Shown: one piece after another, positions 1-6,282 of the stretch
Numbering within the stretch: the first letter of the stretch is position 1
Layout of the letters: each line of letters opens with the position of its first letter
Source: Bacteroidales bacterium
GTDB lineage: Bacteria; Bacteroidota; Bacteroidia; Bacteroidales; Bacteroidaceae
Direction of reading: 5' to 3'
DNA: 49,843 nt
Assembly: GCA_030528885.1 (NCBI GenBank)
Contig: JAUMXY010000021.1
Span: 1 to 49,843, forward strand
Notes under the pieces: model-generated
The model's input: only the letters and a program-made list of their open reading frames with translations
The model's database searches: none
What the model was told of the DNA's origin: nothing
Translations under genes and position numbers: made by a program

Positions 1-839
1 TGCACCCTTTCCGCTATTTTCACATAGTCCTTGAACCGTTTTCCCTGCACAGGGGCATTCAGTTCGTTCCACATCGCCACAGGCTTCTTGAAACTCTGAG
101 TCACCATGCGCACCATCTCGTCACGGGGAGGCAGGTGCGGATGCTCAGGCACCTCAGCCTTCACCATATCGCAGAACGTGCCAAAGTCCTTCTCGCCCAC
201 CACCTTGCAGTCAGCCAGCACACGATACACCGCATACCACTGCCTTGCCACCTCCACCATCGGAGCCACCTTCTGAATGGCACGTGACACCTGCACAGGC
301 GAGATACTCTTCTGCTGAGATACCTTCTTCTTAGCCTTCTCGATGAAGTCCATGCACGAACGGTATTTGATACGTGGCACACGCCTGAGGATTCTCGTAA
401 TCACACCCACAAGAAACGCATCATCGTGATCTTCCATCCTTATCGCCTCGAACTCCTCATTCTGAGGCACCAGCCAAGGATGCCCCTCCTTGTCCTCGCA
501 GTAGGTCTTGACGGTGTAGTCGCCATCCAGCCAAGCCAACACGACATCGCCATCCATGATAGGCACATCCCTTGCCACCTGCAGCACATCCCCATCCTGT
601 ATGCCGGCACCTATCATCGAATCGCCCTTTGCCCTCACCGCGTAATCCTCAAGGCTTGTCAGCATTCTTCTCGGCACCATCTGCTCCTCCTTCACCACAT
701 CCCCCACACCGTTCGGCACACCGCACGGCACCTCATTGTCATAGAACGTCATTGGAGTGTCACACACCATAGGTTCCCACCCCAACCGTTCCAAATCTTC
801 AAACAACTTCTCAAAATCAGTTACTTCAGACCTTGCCAT
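1..839 (-). CDS. S24 family (UmuD/LexA-like) peptidase, C-terminus cut by window edge
   Basis: Reading starts at the ATG at 839-837 and stays open for 279 codons to the left edge, so the C-terminus is missing. Residues about 35-152 form an S24 peptidase domain. The candidate catalytic serine is Ser74 in KGDSM and the general-base lysine is Lys111 in YTVKTY. A Cys39-Gly40 pair lies 35 residues before the serine. In E. coli UmuD the order is Cys24-Gly25, Ser60, Lys97, so the spacing is nearly the same and self-cleavage is plausible. There is no N-terminal helix-turn-helix, so it is not a LexA or CI repressor of the usual build. After the peptidase domain comes a Lys/Arg-rich extension of more than 120 residues that I do not recognise. 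Role in SOS response or mobile-element control is inference. Confidence 0.8.
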   Translation of the reverse strand, partial: MARSEVTDFEKLFEDLERLGWEPMVCDTPMTFYDNEVPCGVPNGVGDVVKEEQMVPRRMLTSLEDYAVRAKGDSMIGAGIQDGDVLQVARDVPIMDGDVVLAWLDGDYTVKTYCEDKEGHPWLVPQNEEFEAIRMEDHDDAFLVGVITRILRRVPRIKYRSCMDFIEKAKKKVSQQKSISPVQVSRAIQKVAPMVEVARQWYAVYRVLADCKVVGEKDFGTFCDMVKAEVPEHPHLPPRDEMVRMVTQSFKKPVAMWNELNAPVQGKRFKDYVKIAERV

Positions 840-1029
840 GATTATATAAGTTTTATGTATGTTCTTTTCTTTAATTCCGCACGAACTTCACAGCCCATGC
901 GGATTCCATATTGGTAATTTAATAGCATCAGCAGAATCAGTCGATGTCCTGCATTAGCGTTATATCTATATTACTAAATTCTCTTTTACCTGTCACCTTT
1001 CATATGTGAATCAGAATCTAATTTCAAAA

Positions 1030-2217
1030 TCAGATTGTTCTCAATTCATTAATATTGATGTTAGACAACAATTCTTTTTGAATATTTACAAATTCTTTTA
1101 AGAAACTTTGAGAAATGTCCCAATATTGTTTATACATCTTTCTCATCTTTCTTTCTATTGTCATTTGTACTTTTTCATCGGGAATTGGGATGAAAACAGC
1201 ATTAAGAAAATCAGCTTCTTGAACTCGCGCTCTAGAAGAAGATGAACCTGTTGCCAGACGGACTAATTGTGATTTGACATAATCAGATTGTAAAATAGCA
1301 GACAAAACAAATTTGTTTCTTATTTTTGAATTATCCAATAGTTCTAATATATATGCTTCTTTTGAAATTAGGACTTCATTTATTTCTTCCGGGATAATAA
1401 AGACACGACTTTTTCTTGGATTGATTCTGCAATATGCTAAATCTCCACCTTTCGCTTTATAAAATGAGTATCCTATCTCATGGCCTTTTAAAACCCTTAT
1501 ATTTGAGATAACTCCAGTTGTTGGTGAAACATCAGGTATTTCAAGATAATTATATACTTGATTACGATTAGGTGTAAATGATGTGTGAATAAATCTGCAC
1601 ACCTTATCCATTCTCTCCAGTTTTGGGAATTTTTTCTTCAGATTCTCTAAGTCTATCCGGTTTAGAAGATAATTAGAATCGATTCTATAAGGCGTTATAA
1701 AATCTTGCTCTATCCATGAATATTCTCCACCATTCTCTGTCACTCTTATATTGGGGAAAAATTCTCTTGCTCCATCTAAGAAAATCGGCAAATCATTCTT
1801 TTCGATTGGTTTATAAACCGATTTTCCAACTTCGAAACCTATTTCCTTTGCGTTTGCTAGGAAAACATACTCTGGTTTGTTTAGAATAACCTTACCCTTT
1901 TTCCTCACCCCAATAATTGTTGTTTTTGACACGGATTTTCCAAATGGTATAAAAGCTCCTTCTGGCAGGCTCACAACCATTGTAAGAAAACACTTTGCCA
2001 ACAACCATTCTCTGAACCCTAAATACGACGGAAGATTTAATAAGCCCTCTGGTAAAACTATATAAACTTCACCTCCCTTTGATGAATCAATGGCTCTTAT
2101 GCATCTCTCAATAAAAAGAATATCTAATTCTTGACTCTCCCTGTTTTCCCCCATTTCGTATTTATTCAATACATTTTCAAACGTATAGGGAATTGTAAAT
2201 GGAGGGTTAGTTAGCAC
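1030..2217 (-). CDS. C-terminal fragment of fused restriction-modification protein: methylase end plus specificity domain
   Basis: This frame begins exactly at the N6-adenine methylase motif IV (TNPPF, residues 3-7), which normally lies inside an HsdM-type domain, so it is not a natural N-terminus. It continues the reading frame of the upstream fragment after a one-base shift. The first ~170 residues finish the methylase domain. From about residue 190 to the end the protein resembles a type I target-recognition (S subunit-like) domain, with a conserved-looking coiled region near the C-terminus (KVQMTIERKMRKMYKQYWDI). Joined with the upstream part, the protein would be about 815 residues: nuclease-like domain, methylase and specificity in one chain, a type IIG-like layout. 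The ATG here may not be used in the cell. Confidence 0.8.
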   Translation of the reverse strand: MLTNPPFTIPYTFENVLNKYEMGENRESQELDILFIERCIRAIDSSKGGEVYIVLPEGLLNLPSYLGFREWLLAKCFLTMVVSLPEGAFIPFGKSVSKTTIIGVRKKGKVILNKPEYVFLANAKEIGFEVGKSVYKPIEKNDLPIFLDGAREFFPNIRVTENGGEYSWIEQDFITPYRIDSNYLLNRIDLENLKKKFPKLERMDKVCRFIHTSFTPNRNQVYNYLEIPDVSPTTGVISNIRVLKGHEIGYSFYKAKGGDLAYCRINPRKSRVFIIPEEINEVLISKEAYILELLDNSKIRNKFVLSAILQSDYVKSQLVRLATGSSSSRARVQEADFLNAVFIPIPDEKVQMTIERKMRKMYKQYWDISQSFLKEFVNIQKELLSNININELRTI

Positions 2218-3476
2218 TAAATTAAAACTATTGTCTGGGATTTGATCATTGTTTTGTTTAATGAATCACCTTGATATATGTTATTATATCCATCACCATG
2301 CATTATAAGATTAATTTTCGCCAAGACATGTAAGTCTTCATCAGCCTCTCCTCCCCATAGACACTTTTCTATCAAGTCATTAAACAATCTATTTGATTCT
2401 TTTTCAGAAATATTTGAATCGGTTATTTTCTGATTAACATATTGGAATGATTGTATAAGAAATCCTCCAGAACCACATGCAGGATCCAGTATTTTATCCC
2501 CTATTTTGGGATTTGCGTATTTAACCATGAAATCTACAACTTCTCTAGGAGTAAAGTATTGGTCAAAATCTCCTCTCAAGGTAGATTTCAAGAAAATTTC
2601 ATAAACAGCCCCCTTTATGTCGTCTCCAGTTCCTAAAAAAGACCATGGTTCCAGTTCTTTGATGACAGATTCCAAACAATCCGCATCTGTAATTTTTATC
2701 TTTTCATCAGGATCGCTATAAATAGGATACTGCGTAGTAGCATCTTTGAATAAACAAATAAATTCGTCTTTAATACTTTGTTTGTGGATAATACCCATTT
2801 GTTTCAAAATATTGATTTGAAACCTATTGGTTTTTCCGTTCTTAGCCCGATGTTCTTCATTCATCTTAACTAGAAGTATCTTAGTCATTTCTTTGAATGA
2901 TTGATCGCTTCTAATCATTCCCTTTTTCTCTATGGTATCTTTACATTTCTTGATGATTTTGTACAATTCATCTTCATTTGTCAAGGTAAGGAGCAAACTT
3001 TGAACCTCTCTTATTTCGATGTCCGTAAGTTCTTTTCTTCGAGTTCGAGAAACTTCACTAATCAATTCACCTTTAGATGGAATAACACTTGTCCTTTTTC
3101 CTGTATAAATGTTGGTCACTACCACATCCCAACCATTTGTTACGATGCCATATATAGCTGGTGGCGTTGCAACTAGTTTTGCGTAACTAACACTTTGTAA
3201 AATATCTTTCTCTTTCAAAGAGATATTTGGCCCTTTCGTATCAATAATGATCTCCACATTACCATTTTCAAATATCTCAATATCAGATTCAACCGTGACC
3301 TTTCTTGTCCCAGTCTGTACACTCATACTATTTTCAAAACGCATATCAGTTTTCTTGTACCCCAATTTTTCCAAGAAAGGACATACAATATGCATTTTTA
3401 CATCTTCTTCCGTCTTGATCTTTAAAGACGTATTTGTTATATTTTCTTTCACCCAATCTCTTAGTATCATTTTCAA
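2217..3476 (-). CDS. N-terminal fragment of fused restriction-modification protein: HsdR_N-like nuclease plus N6-methylase start
   Basis: Residues 1-130 resemble the HsdR N-terminal nuclease-like domain, with a possible PD-(D/E)xK core at Asp65 and Asp79-x-Lys81 (EIIIDTKGP). Residues about 270-400 are the N6 DNA methylase core, with QYFTPREV (306-313) and the SAM-binding motif I DPACGSGGF (331-339). The frame ends early, just before motif IV. Restoring one base in the T run at 2252-2255 (A run on the coding strand) joins it to the next frame as DQIPDNSFNLVLTNPPF, the sequence expected for the family. The gene lies 18 bp after the GIY-YIG gene on the same strand and is markedly AT-rich compared with the rest of the window, which suggests horizontal transfer. 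As sequenced, no full enzyme would be made. Confidence 0.85.
   Translation of the reverse strand: MKMILRDWVKENITNTSLKIKTEEDVKMHIVCPFLEKLGYKKTDMRFENSMSVQTGTRKVTVESDIEIFENGNVEIIIDTKGPNISLKEKDILQSVSYAKLVATPPAIYGIVTNGWDVVVTNIYTGKRTSVIPSKGELISEVSRTRRKELTDIEIREVQSLLLTLTNEDELYKIIKKCKDTIEKKGMIRSDQSFKEMTKILLVKMNEEHRAKNGKTNRFQINILKQMGIIHKQSIKDEFICLFKDATTQYPIYSDPDEKIKITDADCLESVIKELEPWSFLGTGDDIKGAVYEIFLKSTLRGDFDQYFTPREVVDFMVKYANPKIGDKILDPACGSGGFLIQSFQYVNQKITDSNISEKESNRLFNDLIEKCLWGGEADEDLHVLAKINLIMHGDGYNNIYQGDSLNKTMIKSQTIVLI
2252..2255 (-). other. Frameshift site splitting the restriction-modification gene
   Basis: On the coding strand the frame breaks at AACAAAACAATG. One extra A (five instead of four) restores a continuous methylase domain through NPPF. 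The four-base run is short for phase variation. It is also not a standard X XXY YYZ slippery heptamer. A fixed mutation or a sequencing error is more likely than programmed shifting. Confidence 0.75.
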
Positions 3477-3494
3477 AAGGTTTTGATTATAATA

Positions 3495-4370
3495 TTATCC
3501 TTTCCACCATTCTGATGGATATTTATTCTGGTCTTCATCTACCCAAGCTTCTGTTCCTTGATAGGATGTGCCAGCACAGAAGGAAGCAGCACCTGAAGGC
3601 GAGCTTACTAATTCAGATAGGTCAATATCTTGCTGCAAGCTGTATAATTCCCCATCTTTCTGGGCGAGTTTCTTGTTAGCTATTACCTGCTTTCTGAATT
3701 CAGCCAATCCTTTGGGACAACTCTTGCTGGTTTCACCAACGATGGTGCTTTCACTTGTAATCACATAGCGTTTGCTTTCACGATAGAATTTCAAGAAAGC
3801 AAGCATACCAGTCTTGGGCATATACATCTTAAACTCCATAAAGGGTTCTGGCTCTGGCGTCTTCTCAGGACGATCAAAGACTTTGCAACCATAGAAGCGC
3901 GTCAAGAATTGAATATCTTCAAAGAACAATTCCATCTCGTTCTGCTTATCCTCAGACAAAGGCGGTTTGTTGATGTCCTTTGTGTTGTCGATGATGAAAT
4001 TATCTGCTTCAGTAGCTGCTTTCCAACCAAGATATTCTAAATAAAGTGCCTCGCTGGGGTAGATTTCATCAGATTTGGAAACGAACACAAGGGCTGTGTC
4101 CCAAAAGTCTTTCTTTTGCTTATGGTCATTGACACGATTTGTGAAGTCATTCGTCTGACCCACATAAGCCATTGGGCGCATATCTTTGTTTCTACCCAGC
4201 AAAATATAAAAGCCATATCGCTGAAGATGTGGTTGTTTCTTTCCTATCTCAGCCACTTTTTCACGTGGAAGCACAAAACATTCACACGACTTTGTGCTAC
4301 CCATGTCGATGATACGTGCTCCTTCCAAGGTCTTGTCGAGCAGTTTGGTATAAACGGTTAGTATTGCCAT
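3495..4370 (-). CDS. GIY-YIG nuclease family protein with C-terminal DUF4357
   Basis: The GIY-YIG core is visible as YGFYILLG (residues 52-59) and AYVGQTNDF (68-76), with the following conserved Arg79 and a candidate metal-binding Glu107 in YPSEALYLE. The last ~60 residues (SSPSGAASF through the terminal EWWKG) match the DUF4357 pattern commonly found at the C-terminus of such proteins. The family usually has 270-310 residues and this one has 291. It probably acts on DNA, but the substrate is unknown. It lies directly upstream of the fused restriction-modification gene on the same strand, after its own -7 box at 4432-4439, so the two are likely co-transcribed. A role in defence is inferred from position only. 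Confidence 0.85.
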   Translation of the reverse strand: MAILTVYTKLLDKTLEGARIIDMGSTKSCECFVLPREKVAEIGKKQPHLQRYGFYILLGRNKDMRPMAYVGQTNDFTNRVNDHKQKKDFWDTALVFVSKSDEIYPSEALYLEYLGWKAATEADNFIIDNTKDINKPPLSEDKQNEMELFFEDIQFLTRFYGCKVFDRPEKTPEPEPFMEFKMYMPKTGMLAFLKFYRESKRYVITSESTIVGETSKSCPKGLAEFRKQVIANKKLAQKDGELYSLQQDIDLSELVSSPSGAASFCAGTSYQGTEAWVDEDQNKYPSEWWKG

Positions 4371-4431
4371 ATCTCTATTTCTTATTTATTCCGTATCGTA
4401 AAACACAAGTGTGCGGTTGATTTTTCAGCCA

Positions 4432-4439
4432 CAAAGATA
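4432..4439 (-). promoter_or_regulatory. -7 box upstream of GIY-YIG gene
   Basis: The minus strand reads TATCTTTG, matching the Bacteroidetes -7 consensus TAnnTTTG. It lies about 62 bases before the start codon and would drive the GIY-YIG and restriction-modification genes. Confidence 0.6.
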
Positions 4440-4696
4440 AAGTTTTTTCCCGAAACGAGAGGGTTTTTGAGGGAAAACATAGTCAATTAAACAAAACTTG
4501 GTTGTTTTTTTTGACACCTTCCCACTCAATTTAGCGTACTGCCGATTTCTGTTGATAACAAAAACAGCAGGGCACTCATATTCCACATTTCTCAATTCGG
4601 CAACCGTTGTCCGTTTTCTGTTATACGGTTATGAAATGCGTAAACTTTAGTGTTTTCTTTGTGATTTGAAATTAAATCTATACCTCTGCAGGCAAA

Positions 4697-4825
4697 TCAA
4701 AATCTTTTGAAGATATGAAATCCCCACAAGATGCTCGGGAGAAAATCAAACAAGCATACATGAAGGGAGAAATCGTTTTGAGTGATGAAAATTCTCATGT
4801 GGATGTGGATTTTCATATTGCCTAA
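4697..4825 (+). pseudogene. Short remnant reading frame of unknown origin
   Basis: The frame around the ATG at 4715-4717 encodes MKSPQDAREKIKQAYMKGEI and ends at the TAA at 4823-4825 (36 residues from that ATG). The frame is open upstream through KSKSFED without a clear start, and composition looks protein-like. It is followed within 7 bases by a second fragment that resembles a four-helix-bundle family N-terminus. I do not recognise the family of this part. It is best read as the tail of a decayed gene in the island, with low certainty. Confidence 0.3.
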
Positions 4826-4831
4826 TAGCGT

Positions 4832-4927
4832 ATGGAAGAGGATAAGGATTTTTTGTGGCAAGACAACAACTACCGCACGTTGAAAGCGTTTCAGAAGGCG
4901 GAGTGTATCTATGATGTAACTTACTAA
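4832..4927 (+). pseudogene. Truncated four-helix-bundle suffix domain protein (N-terminal remnant)
   Basis: This 31-codon frame encodes WQDNNYRTLKAFQKAECIYD followed by VTY and a stop. The pattern NYxxLxxFQKAExIYDxTY is how Bacteroidetes four-helix-bundle suffix domain (S23-type) proteins begin, and these normally run to about 180-200 residues. Here the frame stops right after that motif and no continuation is visible downstream. Such genes are common in variable regions and mobile introns or intervening sequences. The remnant suggests deletion in the island before the methyltransferase promoter. Confidence 0.5.
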
Positions 4928-4981
4928 ATAAACAGAAATAAGTATTGGAAGGCGACACTTATTGCTTAACATTCTGATTAA

Positions 4982-5076
4982 GATCTGCTTATACTTGTTT
5001 TAACTATGTTAAATTCTTAAAAAATGATCACAGATCTTAAAAAATGATCTAATCCATTTTATCTCGTTTTTTGATC
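4982..5076 (+). promoter_or_regulatory. Cluster of five GATC sites and a 15-bp direct repeat upstream of the methyltransferase
   Basis: GATC occurs at 4982, 5026, 5033, 5046 and 5073, five times in 95 bp where about one per 256 bp is expected at even composition. The sequence TCTTAAAAAATGATC is repeated exactly at 5015-5029 and 5035-5049, a 20-bp period or about two helical turns. The last GATC ends one base before the -7 box of the downstream gene. Because that gene encodes a predicted GATC methylase, methylation-sensitive autoregulation is a reasonable inference. Confidence 0.6.
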
Positions 5077-5077
5077 T

Positions 5078-5085
5078 TACCTTTG
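5078..5085 (+). promoter_or_regulatory. -7 box of the DpnA-like methyltransferase gene
   Basis: TACCTTTG matches TAnnTTTG. Transcription would start near 5091, leaving a leader of only about 10 bases before the ATG at 5102. Confidence 0.6.
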
Positions 5086-5101
5086 CGGTGAATTTGTCGC
5101 A

Positions 5102-6193
5102 ATGGAGTATCAAGTAACTATCACAGAGACGCTTTCTCGTATAGAGTTAGTCGAGGCATCTTCTGCTATTGAAGCAGAAGATTTTGTACGTGACAGATAC
5201 TCAAAATGTGACATTGTCTTAAATGACACCCACTTTATTGACACTAACTTTGAGACCAATCAAGTGGTGCCCAATATGTCCACCCTATGCCACCTTCCAA
5301 CTCTCAATCCATATTACACGTCAAAGAAAAAAGATTTTCAACTTCTCCATGAGGATTGTTTTGAATTATTGCCTCATATCGAACAGCAGTTTGACATGAT
5401 ATTTGCCGACCCTCCTTATTTCCTCTCGAATGGTGGTATATCCATTCAGAGCGGAGAGGTGGTCAGCGTAAATAAAGGTGATTGGGATAAGGGGCTTTCG
5501 CCAGAGGAGATGAACGATTTCAACTTGCGTTGGATTTCACTTTGCCGTGACAAGTTGAAAGATAATGGCACAATTTGGATTAGTGGCACCTATCACAATA
5601 TTTTCAGCGTAGCCAATGCCCTCACTCAATTGGGATTCAAGATATTGAACGTAGTCACTTGGGCAAAGACCAATCCCCCACCAAACGTGTCATGCCGTTA
5701 CTTCACCTATTCCACGGAGTTCATCATCTGGGCAAGAAAAAAGGAAAAGGTAGCACATTATTATAACTACGAACTGATGAAGCGCATCAATGGCGACAAG
5801 CAGATGCGCGATGTGTGGAACTTGCCAGCTATCGCGCCTTGGGAAAAGTCCTGCGGCAAACACCCAACGCAGAAACCTTTGGGATTGCTGAGCCGCATCA
5901 TCATGGCATCCACAAAGCCAGGAGCATGGATTCTTGACCCATTCGCCGGAAGCAGCACCACAGGCATCGCCGCCAACCTGCTTGACAGGCGCTACCTCGG
6001 CATTGAACGTGAAGAGGAGTTTGCCCTGATGGGGAAGAGAAGGCGTGAAGAGATTGATAATATCAGCAATTATGCGACTTTCAGAAGTAAAATTGCTGAC
6101 ATCGTCAAGGCTGAGGACACACAAACAGATTGCTTTACCTTGAGAGAAGATTTTCCAGCGGAAGCTCTGCCATTCCTTTGCGAAAAAGGATGA
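5102..6193 (+). CDS. DpnA-like adenine DNA methyltransferase with N-terminal DpnD/PcfM-like domain
   Basis: Residues 1-55 (VTITETLSRIELVEA and so on) resemble the small DpnD/PcfM domain. From about residue 75 it is a beta-class amino methyltransferase. Motif IV is FADPPYFLSNGG, followed by VSVNKGDWDKG. The motif I region is ILDPFAGSSTTGIAA, preceded by GKHPTQKP. From memory, it resembles pneumococcal DpnA (M2.DpnII) more closely than M.HinfI, so GATC is the likely target. The C-terminal ~55 residues extend past the usual DpnA end. No restriction endonuclease gene follows, so it may be an orphan. The stop codon overlaps the ATG of a 30-codon frame. Its strand is opposite to the neighbouring genes and it has its own promoter. 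Confidence 0.88.
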   Translation: MEYQVTITETLSRIELVEASSAIEAEDFVRDRYSKCDIVLNDTHFIDTNFETNQVVPNMSTLCHLPTLNPYYTSKKKDFQLLHEDCFELLPHIEQQFDMIFADPPYFLSNGGISIQSGEVVSVNKGDWDKGLSPEEMNDFNLRWISLCRDKLKDNGTIWISGTYHNIFSVANALTQLGFKILNVVTWAKTNPPPNVSCRYFTYSTEFIIWARKKEKVAHYYNYELMKRINGDKQMRDVWNLPAIAPWEKSCGKHPTQKPLGLLSRIIMASTKPGAWILDPFAGSSTTGIAANLLDRRYLGIEREEEFALMGKRRREEIDNISNYATFRSKIADIVKAEDTQTDCFTLREDFPAEALPFLCEKG

Positions 6194-6282
6194 TTGGCGA
6201 AGAACACGGTGCCCTTATATTGGACAAGAATTTTGCCTTCAATACAGACAAAGAATCCTGCCTACAGAAGAAGAAAGGCTGA
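6190..6282 (+). CDS. Possible 30-residue ORF overlapping the methyltransferase stop (ATGA)
   Basis: An ATG at 6190-6192 overlaps the TGA of the methyltransferase, the usual arrangement for coupled translation. It encodes MIGEEHGALILDKNFAFNTD plus ten more residues, then TGA at 6280. I do not recognise it. It could be a small partner, the stump of a lost endonuclease gene, or chance. A terminator follows 18 bases later. Confidence 0.25.
   Translation: MIGEEHGALILDKNFAFNTDKESCLQKKKG

Follow-up and report, generated by a model that had tools for sequence, protein, structure and literature searches.

Within a Bacteroidales bacterium related to rumen Prevotella, a contig stretch of 49,843 nucleotides (the window) raises the question of why a gene predicted to encode a GATC methyltransferase should carry a crowd of GATC sites in its own promoter.

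The GATC cluster and the gene that it precedes

Upstream of the gene at 5102-6193, GATC sites were found at positions 4982, 5026, 5033, 5046 and 5073. The sequence-only reading had counted five GATC in 95 bp ahead of the -7 box and a 15-bp direct repeat with a period of 20 bp. Both were borne out, the former at 4982-5076 and the latter as two copies of TCTTAAAAAATGATC at 5015-5029 and 5035-5049 of the forward strand (5015-5049 overall). The -7 box TAccTTTG was assigned at 5078-5085 (+) from the sequence and the alignment, TAnnTTTG being the Bacteroidota -7 consensus, and the fifth GATC ends one base ahead of it.

In the whole window there were 25 GATC, whereas dinucleotide shuffles predict 228.5. 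The observed to expected ratio was 0.13 with an order-2 Markov model, with values of 0.08 beyond position 6200 and 0.52 in 1-5101. CTAG (0.27) and GGCC (0.32) were also depleted window-wide, less than GATC. Random placement of the 25 sites gave at least five GATC in 95 bp in 0 of 20,000 trials, and the rate was 0.0002 in 5,000 dinucleotide shuffles of 4401-5101. When 228 sites were placed, as would be present without avoidance, a cluster of this kind arose somewhere in the window in 16% of the trials, so that the avoidance of GATC is part of the argument against chance. In the assembly (2,622,338 bases in 73 contigs, completeness 88.96), GATC triplets with gaps of 0-30 bp were confined to this promoter.

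The gene at 5102-6193 (+) is a dpnD::dpnA fusion of 363 aa with a DpnD-PcfM domain at aa 3-47 (PF14207, 1e-11) and a beta-class N6 DNA methyltransferase at aa 98-309 (N6_N4_Mtase PF01555, 2e-58), and the motifs DPPY and DPFAGSSTTG are present. Its earlier description as a DpnA-like enzyme holds for the DpnA part; the protein is not a plain DpnA, since a DpnD-PcfM domain is fused to it. DPPY was present in 17/17 fusions and the FxGxG-type pattern in 16/17, the exception being L142 with DPFNGSATTG. The full-length predicted structure (mean pLDDT 73.6) showed an N-terminal domain with a strand-strand-helix-strand order, which is not a helix-turn-helix (HTH), and a search of the DpnD profile against solved structures produced no plausible relative, eight of the 10 local matches being designed TIM barrels. 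No DpnII endonuclease was seen at the window locus.

The product of this gene very probably acts on GATC. We infer this specificity from the operon partners of its relatives, DpnM and DpnII, and from a conserved 74-residue stretch (TWAKTN...KHPTQKP), taken for the target-recognition region, which was 84-93% identical to DpnA of 27 dpnD-dpnM-dpnB-dpnA (D-M-B-A) operons. The best solved relatives were CcrM, which is a GANTC enzyme, and a chain named DpnA (5hek). A CcrM-like GANTC target was rejected: GANTC is absent from 4982-5101, and close relatives have DpnM and DpnII as partners. For Prevotella intermedia, PMC5608340 describes a demonstrated restriction-modification (R-M) system with 6mA at GATC and a second predicted GATC methylase that was inactive when cloned, which by analogy is a caution for the activity predicted here.

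A conserved array upstream of dpnD

Relatives were compared at 82 loci, consisting of the best 80 of 586 confirmed candidates, the window and L115 of the same genome. With L068, L103 and L108 dropped, 79 loci remained in which the first dpn gene is preceded by 150 bp or more; 40 of them carried dpnD (27 D-M-B-A operons and 13 fusions) and 39 did not. Within 200 bp upstream of the first dpn gene, at least three GATC were present in 37/40 dpnD loci, with two GATC in two loci and one in another. At loci lacking dpnD, GATC was absent in 36/39 and occurred once in 3/39. Clustering of GATC upstream of orthologues, as the sequence-only reading would have it, was thus found at dpnD-bearing loci and did not extend to DpnA orthologues at dpnD-less loci, where the array was absent before the first dpn gene in 39/39. 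The assignment of the cluster to a predicted GATC methyltransferase promoter was upheld by the arrays before dpnD/dpnA loci. One locus scored as dpnD-less, L059, has an intact array 2.1 kb before dpnA, then a dpnM remnant, and is by its sequence a decayed operon.

The conserved element was GATC-N6-GATC-N16-GATC, in which the third GATC stands 32 bp ahead of the -7 box TAnnTTTG, and it precedes both full dpnD-dpnM-dpnB-dpnA (DpnII) operons and dpnD::dpnA fusions. The exact spacing of 10 and 20 bp was present in 34/40 promoters (23/27 D-M-B-A, 11/13 fusions) and missing in the window, L031, L045, L055, L056 and L085. The GATC columns were conserved at 93-100% in D-M-B-A operons and 85-100% in fusions, and flanking bases in the D-M-B-A class were almost as conserved as GATC. 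TAnnTTTG, with a background frequency of 0.0007 per base, stood at exactly +32 from the third GATC in 31/40 promoters (20/27 D-M-B-A, 11/13 fusions) and with at most one mismatch in 38/40 (25 D-M-B-A, 13 fusions). The distance from the third GATC to the box was constant in both architectures and the distance to the start codon differed from fusion to fusion; the array thus keeps its place relative to the promoter, not the start codon. Its units follow a 10-bp register that reads GATC, GATC, xTTA, GATC in relatives and CTTA, GATC, (C/A)TTA, GATC in the window and its nearest relative L031; T-tracts also recur with a phase of about 10 bp. In 10/13 fusions, versus 0/27 D-M-B-A loci, an additional GATC sits at +27, a single base ahead of the box. 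Transcription starts about 5 bp past a -7 box. If this applies here, the third GATC would lie near -43 and the array at about -75 to -42, an activator-like position, with the fourth GATC in the core promoter.

Of the five GATCs in the window's cluster, only those at 5026, 5046 and 5073 are part of the arrangement that is conserved among relatives. Register unit 1 (5016-5019, +, from the 40-promoter alignment) is a lost site, reading CTTA in the window and L031 and GATC in most relatives, including 11/13 fusions. GATC site 2 lies at 5026-5029, in a column that is GATC in 13/13 fusion promoters, and unit 3 is CTTA at 5036-5039 (+), xTTA in relatives, with TTA in 13/13 fusions and a following A in 12/13. 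Site 3 at 5046-5049 is the anchor column of the alignment, 32 bp ahead of the box (5046 to 5078), and site 4 at 5073-5076, one base ahead of the box, is typical of fusion promoters. Two sites are extra: the upstream GATC at 4982-4985, common to the window and L031 only, and the out-of-register GATC at 5033-5036, absent in the alignment from the 12 other fusions of the first set. Both lie in a 10-nt inverted repeat (4978-4987 / 5031-5040).

In the reference operon, L084 of Prevotella communis E15-14, the array is followed by dpnD (59 aa), dpnM (TIGR00571, 5e-81), the DpnII endonuclease gene (PF04556, 1e-96) and dpnA. In fusion-type loci dpnD is joined straight to dpnA without intervening dpnM and dpnB, and the DpnD parts had just 28-47% identity to L084 DpnD. 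On the DpnA tree, built from 82 rows and with its bootstrap not fully settled, the fusion label requires 10 changes, with at least six forced by supported branches, and module and methylase have therefore recombined repeatedly. Seven supported independent contrasts on this tree showed on average 6.8/7 in the same direction and none in the opposite one (sign test 0.016-0.031). Co-inheritance of dpnD and the array accounts for part of their association and is expected, because they are just 50-100 bp apart. Within the D-M-B-A loci, dpnM was about 57-61% identical to that of L084 in many cases and 72-92% elsewhere, with dpnB and dpnA often near 80%, which suggests gene swapping inside the operon.

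A search independent of the genes with GATCN6GATCN7TTAAN5GATC, a pattern that overlooks decayed copies such as the window's, produced 11 matches in 11 of 399 genomes of the family. All 11 lay directly upstream of dpnD, in three D-M-B-A operons and eight fusions; five were already in the first set (L033, L052, L061, L067 and L084) and six were new loci. The looser GATCN6GATCN16GATC gave two matches among 45 same-genus genomes and 36 in 30 array-bearing genomes, comprising the 30 known arrays, two variant arrays (L135 and L136) and four others that look unrelated by eye. A large regulon was rejected, as the array is unique in the window's genome and extra matches were few in the 30 array-bearing genomes. 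A universal DpnD operator was also rejected, since 8/8 outside DpnD/PcfM genes (three DpnI-linked and five on four of the eight plasmid records found) had no GATC in 200 bp upstream. The DpnI-dpnD loci L120 and L121 had zero GATC in 1759 and 3135 bases. A phage origin of the array was rejected as well, the sole viral-contig match (L124) lying in a GATC-rich stretch and being judged chance by eye; phage records gave 1069 matches to the window protein, all with less than 60% identity.

The variant array TTAGATCTGTTTAGATCGAATTT...TTAGATCAC was located at about 5868 (-) in L135 and about 5350 (-) in L136, and no dpn genes were found near it in the 9 kb (L135, P6B1) and 11 kb (L136) examined. Its promoter has a GATC beside the -7 box and is of the same kind as the divergent promoter of D-M-B-A loci; the L135 gene beside it encodes the product MSNPAFMSV.... 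On the divergent side, a GATC lies 27-28 bp beyond the first array site in 10/27 D-M-B-A loci, just before a -7-like box. The possible divergent genes, where readable, belong to at least two different small protein families, and a Pfam scan of one member per family showed nothing above cut-off. The array may feed two promoters.

Neighbouring genes and other GATC systems

The genome of the window has a second dpnM-dpnB-dpnA operon (L115 6449-9118, -, contig C3) without dpnD or array. Each of its genes, the DpnII endonuclease included, was matched over nearly full length. This operon could explain the strong avoidance of GATC, and because of it GATC methylation in this genome need not come from the window gene. 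Around the 12 fusion loci counted, the observed to expected ratio of GATC was 0.05-0.46 with the promoter excluded. Four D-M-B-A loci (L040, L043, L045 and L048) barely avoided GATC (41-47 versus 49-60 expected), so avoidance is not a constant companion of the array.

A total of 18 fusion loci were inspected for their neighbours, being the 13 of the first set (window included) and L138-L142; the locus of L139 begins near a contig end. The nearest same-strand upstream nuclease-type gene encoded an approximately 240-aa protein in 10/18 loci and DpnI, which cuts methylated GATC, in 6/18. Four members of the 240-aa group were scanned, and two of them showed a HARE-HTH match below threshold; the other members were grouped by tblastn. 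The C-terminal half of the 240-aa protein is putatively nuclease-like. DpnI was identified by PF06044 and PF17726 in the three scanned (L067, L095 and L142) and the remaining ones were assigned partly by tblastn. It was on the same strand and adjacent to the fusion in L088, L095, L141 and L142, and separated from it by one small ORF in L067 and L090. The contig of L088 holds just the C-terminal part of DpnI; upstream of an apparently intact fusion, DpnI was located in L095 (4122-4901), L067 (3461-4228), L090 (515-1282), L141 (2584-3348) and L142 (2807-3571). An IVP-like ORF lies between the nuclease-type gene and the array in L031, L033, L067 and L090, and the window holds a relic of it at 4829-4924 (+), 32 codons with 96% identity.

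Among the 18 fusion genomes, DpnII endonuclease was found in two (those of the window and L032) and DpnI in six, each time at the fusion locus. Dam/DpnM was above the curated cut-off in three (those of the window, L032 and L033) and in none of the other 15, the six DpnI-bearing genomes among them; these absences are soft, the six fusion genomes of stated completeness being incomplete drafts (78-89). The genome of L090 has a near-full-length Dam-family match below the cut-off, and remnants were present in others.

Further upstream in the window, the GIY-YIG + DUF4357 protein at 3495-4370 (-) matches the candidate defence family PDC-S14 (PADLOC, 3e-57), and the array gene looks like it borders a defence island. 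A MAD2/type I-like N6 methyltransferase whose C-terminal part is specificity-like was found at 1030-3476 (-) as two adjoining ORFs (2217-3476 and 1030-2217), apparently split by a frameshift. Just before the IVP-like relic, an open stretch at 4685-4825 (+) resembles by eye the C-terminal two thirds of a second DpnD, ...KIKQAYMKGEIVLSDENSHVDVDF.

Methylation-responsive control and its alternatives

The array is almost certainly a functional promoter element. As read from its arrangement, it is on balance likely to act as a conserved, methylation-responsive operator of GATC modification systems in Bacteroidales, and that control depends on methylation is, taken by itself, slightly more probable still. 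The three sites, 10 and 20 bp apart and 32 bp from the -7 box, would lie on one helix face, with the third GATC where an activator or RNA polymerase would make contact. The gene product, together with DpnM where present, would methylate the array GATCs, and the adenine methyl groups would alter how RNA polymerase or a regulator binds, DpnD being the nearest candidate for the latter. The feedback would most likely be negative, the methyltransferase being made in a burst while the DNA is unmethylated and only at a low level after the genome has acquired the mark; we hold this direction at just below even chances. Because 15 of the 18 fusion genomes are without Dam/DpnM above the cut-off, the loop may be closed in them as far as the Dam/DpnM families are concerned. 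Two stable states, which the sequence-only reading had raised, are improbable, with nothing seen in support beyond the multiplicity of GATC. Against the main reading, the window copy has lost one of the three sites, L059 keeps its array without dpnD, and the window's genome has a second GATC system. The three DpnI-linked and five plasmid DpnD/PcfM genes without upstream GATC argue against DpnD as a general GATC reader. In addition, a methylation-blind binding site or a curved UP-like element would look similar, because the T-tracts are phased and the flanks of D-M-B-A arrays are nearly as conserved as GATC.

The methylation-blind site would be an operator for a regulator that reads TTTGATC units spaced at 10 bp, methylated or not, with the enzyme's target GATC reused as a binding word. 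Candidate readers would be DpnD, the methyltransferase itself or a C-protein-like factor. We consider such an operator rather unlikely. It would agree with the 10-bp register of units, one of which is GTTA/CTTA instead of GATC, with the conserved flanks and with the dpnD that follows each of the 11 arrays of the pattern search, and binding to their own operator is known for some methyltransferases according to PMC3874152. However, a working system would methylate the array GATCs, which would call for a protein blind to the mark, and a binding-word model does not predict the fourth GATC beside the -7 box in 10/13 fusions. An AT-rich curved UP-like sequence, in which GATC was kept merely via inheritance with a mobile dpnD module, would fit the T-tracts phased at about 10 bp and the mobility of modules seen as 10 changes of the fusion label on the DpnA tree, but we regard it as very unlikely, as GATC columns are 85-100% conserved, mostly in GATC-avoiding DNA, despite a DpnD identity of 28-47% to L084. 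That the five GATCs arose by chance, or are the leftover of acquired GATC-richer DNA, is hardly credible: the upstream island is indeed less GATC-poor (0.52 in 1-5101) and 13 of the 25 window GATCs lie before 5077, but the conservation, the gene-independent pattern search and the placement and shuffle statistics refute it.

The pairing of DpnI with a GATC methylase is unexplained by present ideas. DpnI and an intact-looking GATC methylase side by side are a conflict that would require tight control, and a speculative and improbable extension is that the array serves as the safety catch of a methylation-triggered device made of DpnI and the fused methylase. The methylase, once expressed, would mark the cell's own DNA for DpnI cutting, so the array promoter would keep it silent while GATC is unmethylated, and it would fire when a phage or an incoming methylase upsets the unmethylated state. 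The outcome would be programmed DNA destruction or a switch between a DpnI state and one in which the DNA is methylated. The HARE-HTH-like nuclease fusions and the DpnII operons would then be the same switch with other outputs.

Compared with known systems, the methylation-responsive operator is best read from sequence as a new variant of CfrBI/LlaDII-type control. CfrBI, LlaDII and AhdI are described as R-M systems regulated by promoter methylation (PMC12707154; also PMC3874152), and the former source calls methyltransferase-dependent transcription of the endonuclease particularly logical and apparently rarely used. As in these systems, and given GATC specificity, the promoter of the methyltransferase gene contains recognition sites for the enzyme itself; here, in contrast, these sites form an ordered, dpnD-linked array of three or four sites with helical spacing in many species. 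As in DpnII/MboI (dpnM, dpnA, dpnB), relatives of the window gene sit in dpnM-dpnB-dpnA operons with a DpnII-family endonuclease; unlike there, dpnD is the first gene, and the window gene is fused and without dpnM and dpnB. The Pdpn promoter of S. pneumoniae is described as constitutive (PMC3573125). C-protein R-M systems share with the array loci a small first gene after an ordered operator in its own promoter, but this gene, dpnD, encodes a PF14207 DpnD-PcfM protein and not a member of an HTH controller family. Dam-controlled phase-variable promoters such as pap, agn43 and opvAB are similarly described as having multiple GATC in the regulatory region, whereas here the regulated gene is itself the predicted methylase. 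At the Dam-controlled promoters, a separate housekeeping enzyme, Dam, does the methylating, and the mark is read by OxyR or Lrp.

In titles and abstract openings, with subscription journals mostly outside coverage, no report of a dpnD-linked GATC array was found. Literature on DpnD with restriction and methyltransferase did not name Prevotella in title or abstract opening, and no function of DpnD turned up in the searches; its link to the array gives DpnD a possible role. Overall, the array is a candidate for R-M control that depends on the methyl mark, conserved with fixed geometry in dozens of Bacteroidales, many of them from the rumen. The same row of GATC before matching genes in dozens of related species is probably a built-in, self-regulating methylation switch, and the timing with which these systems turn on and off bears on DNA transfer into Prevotella.
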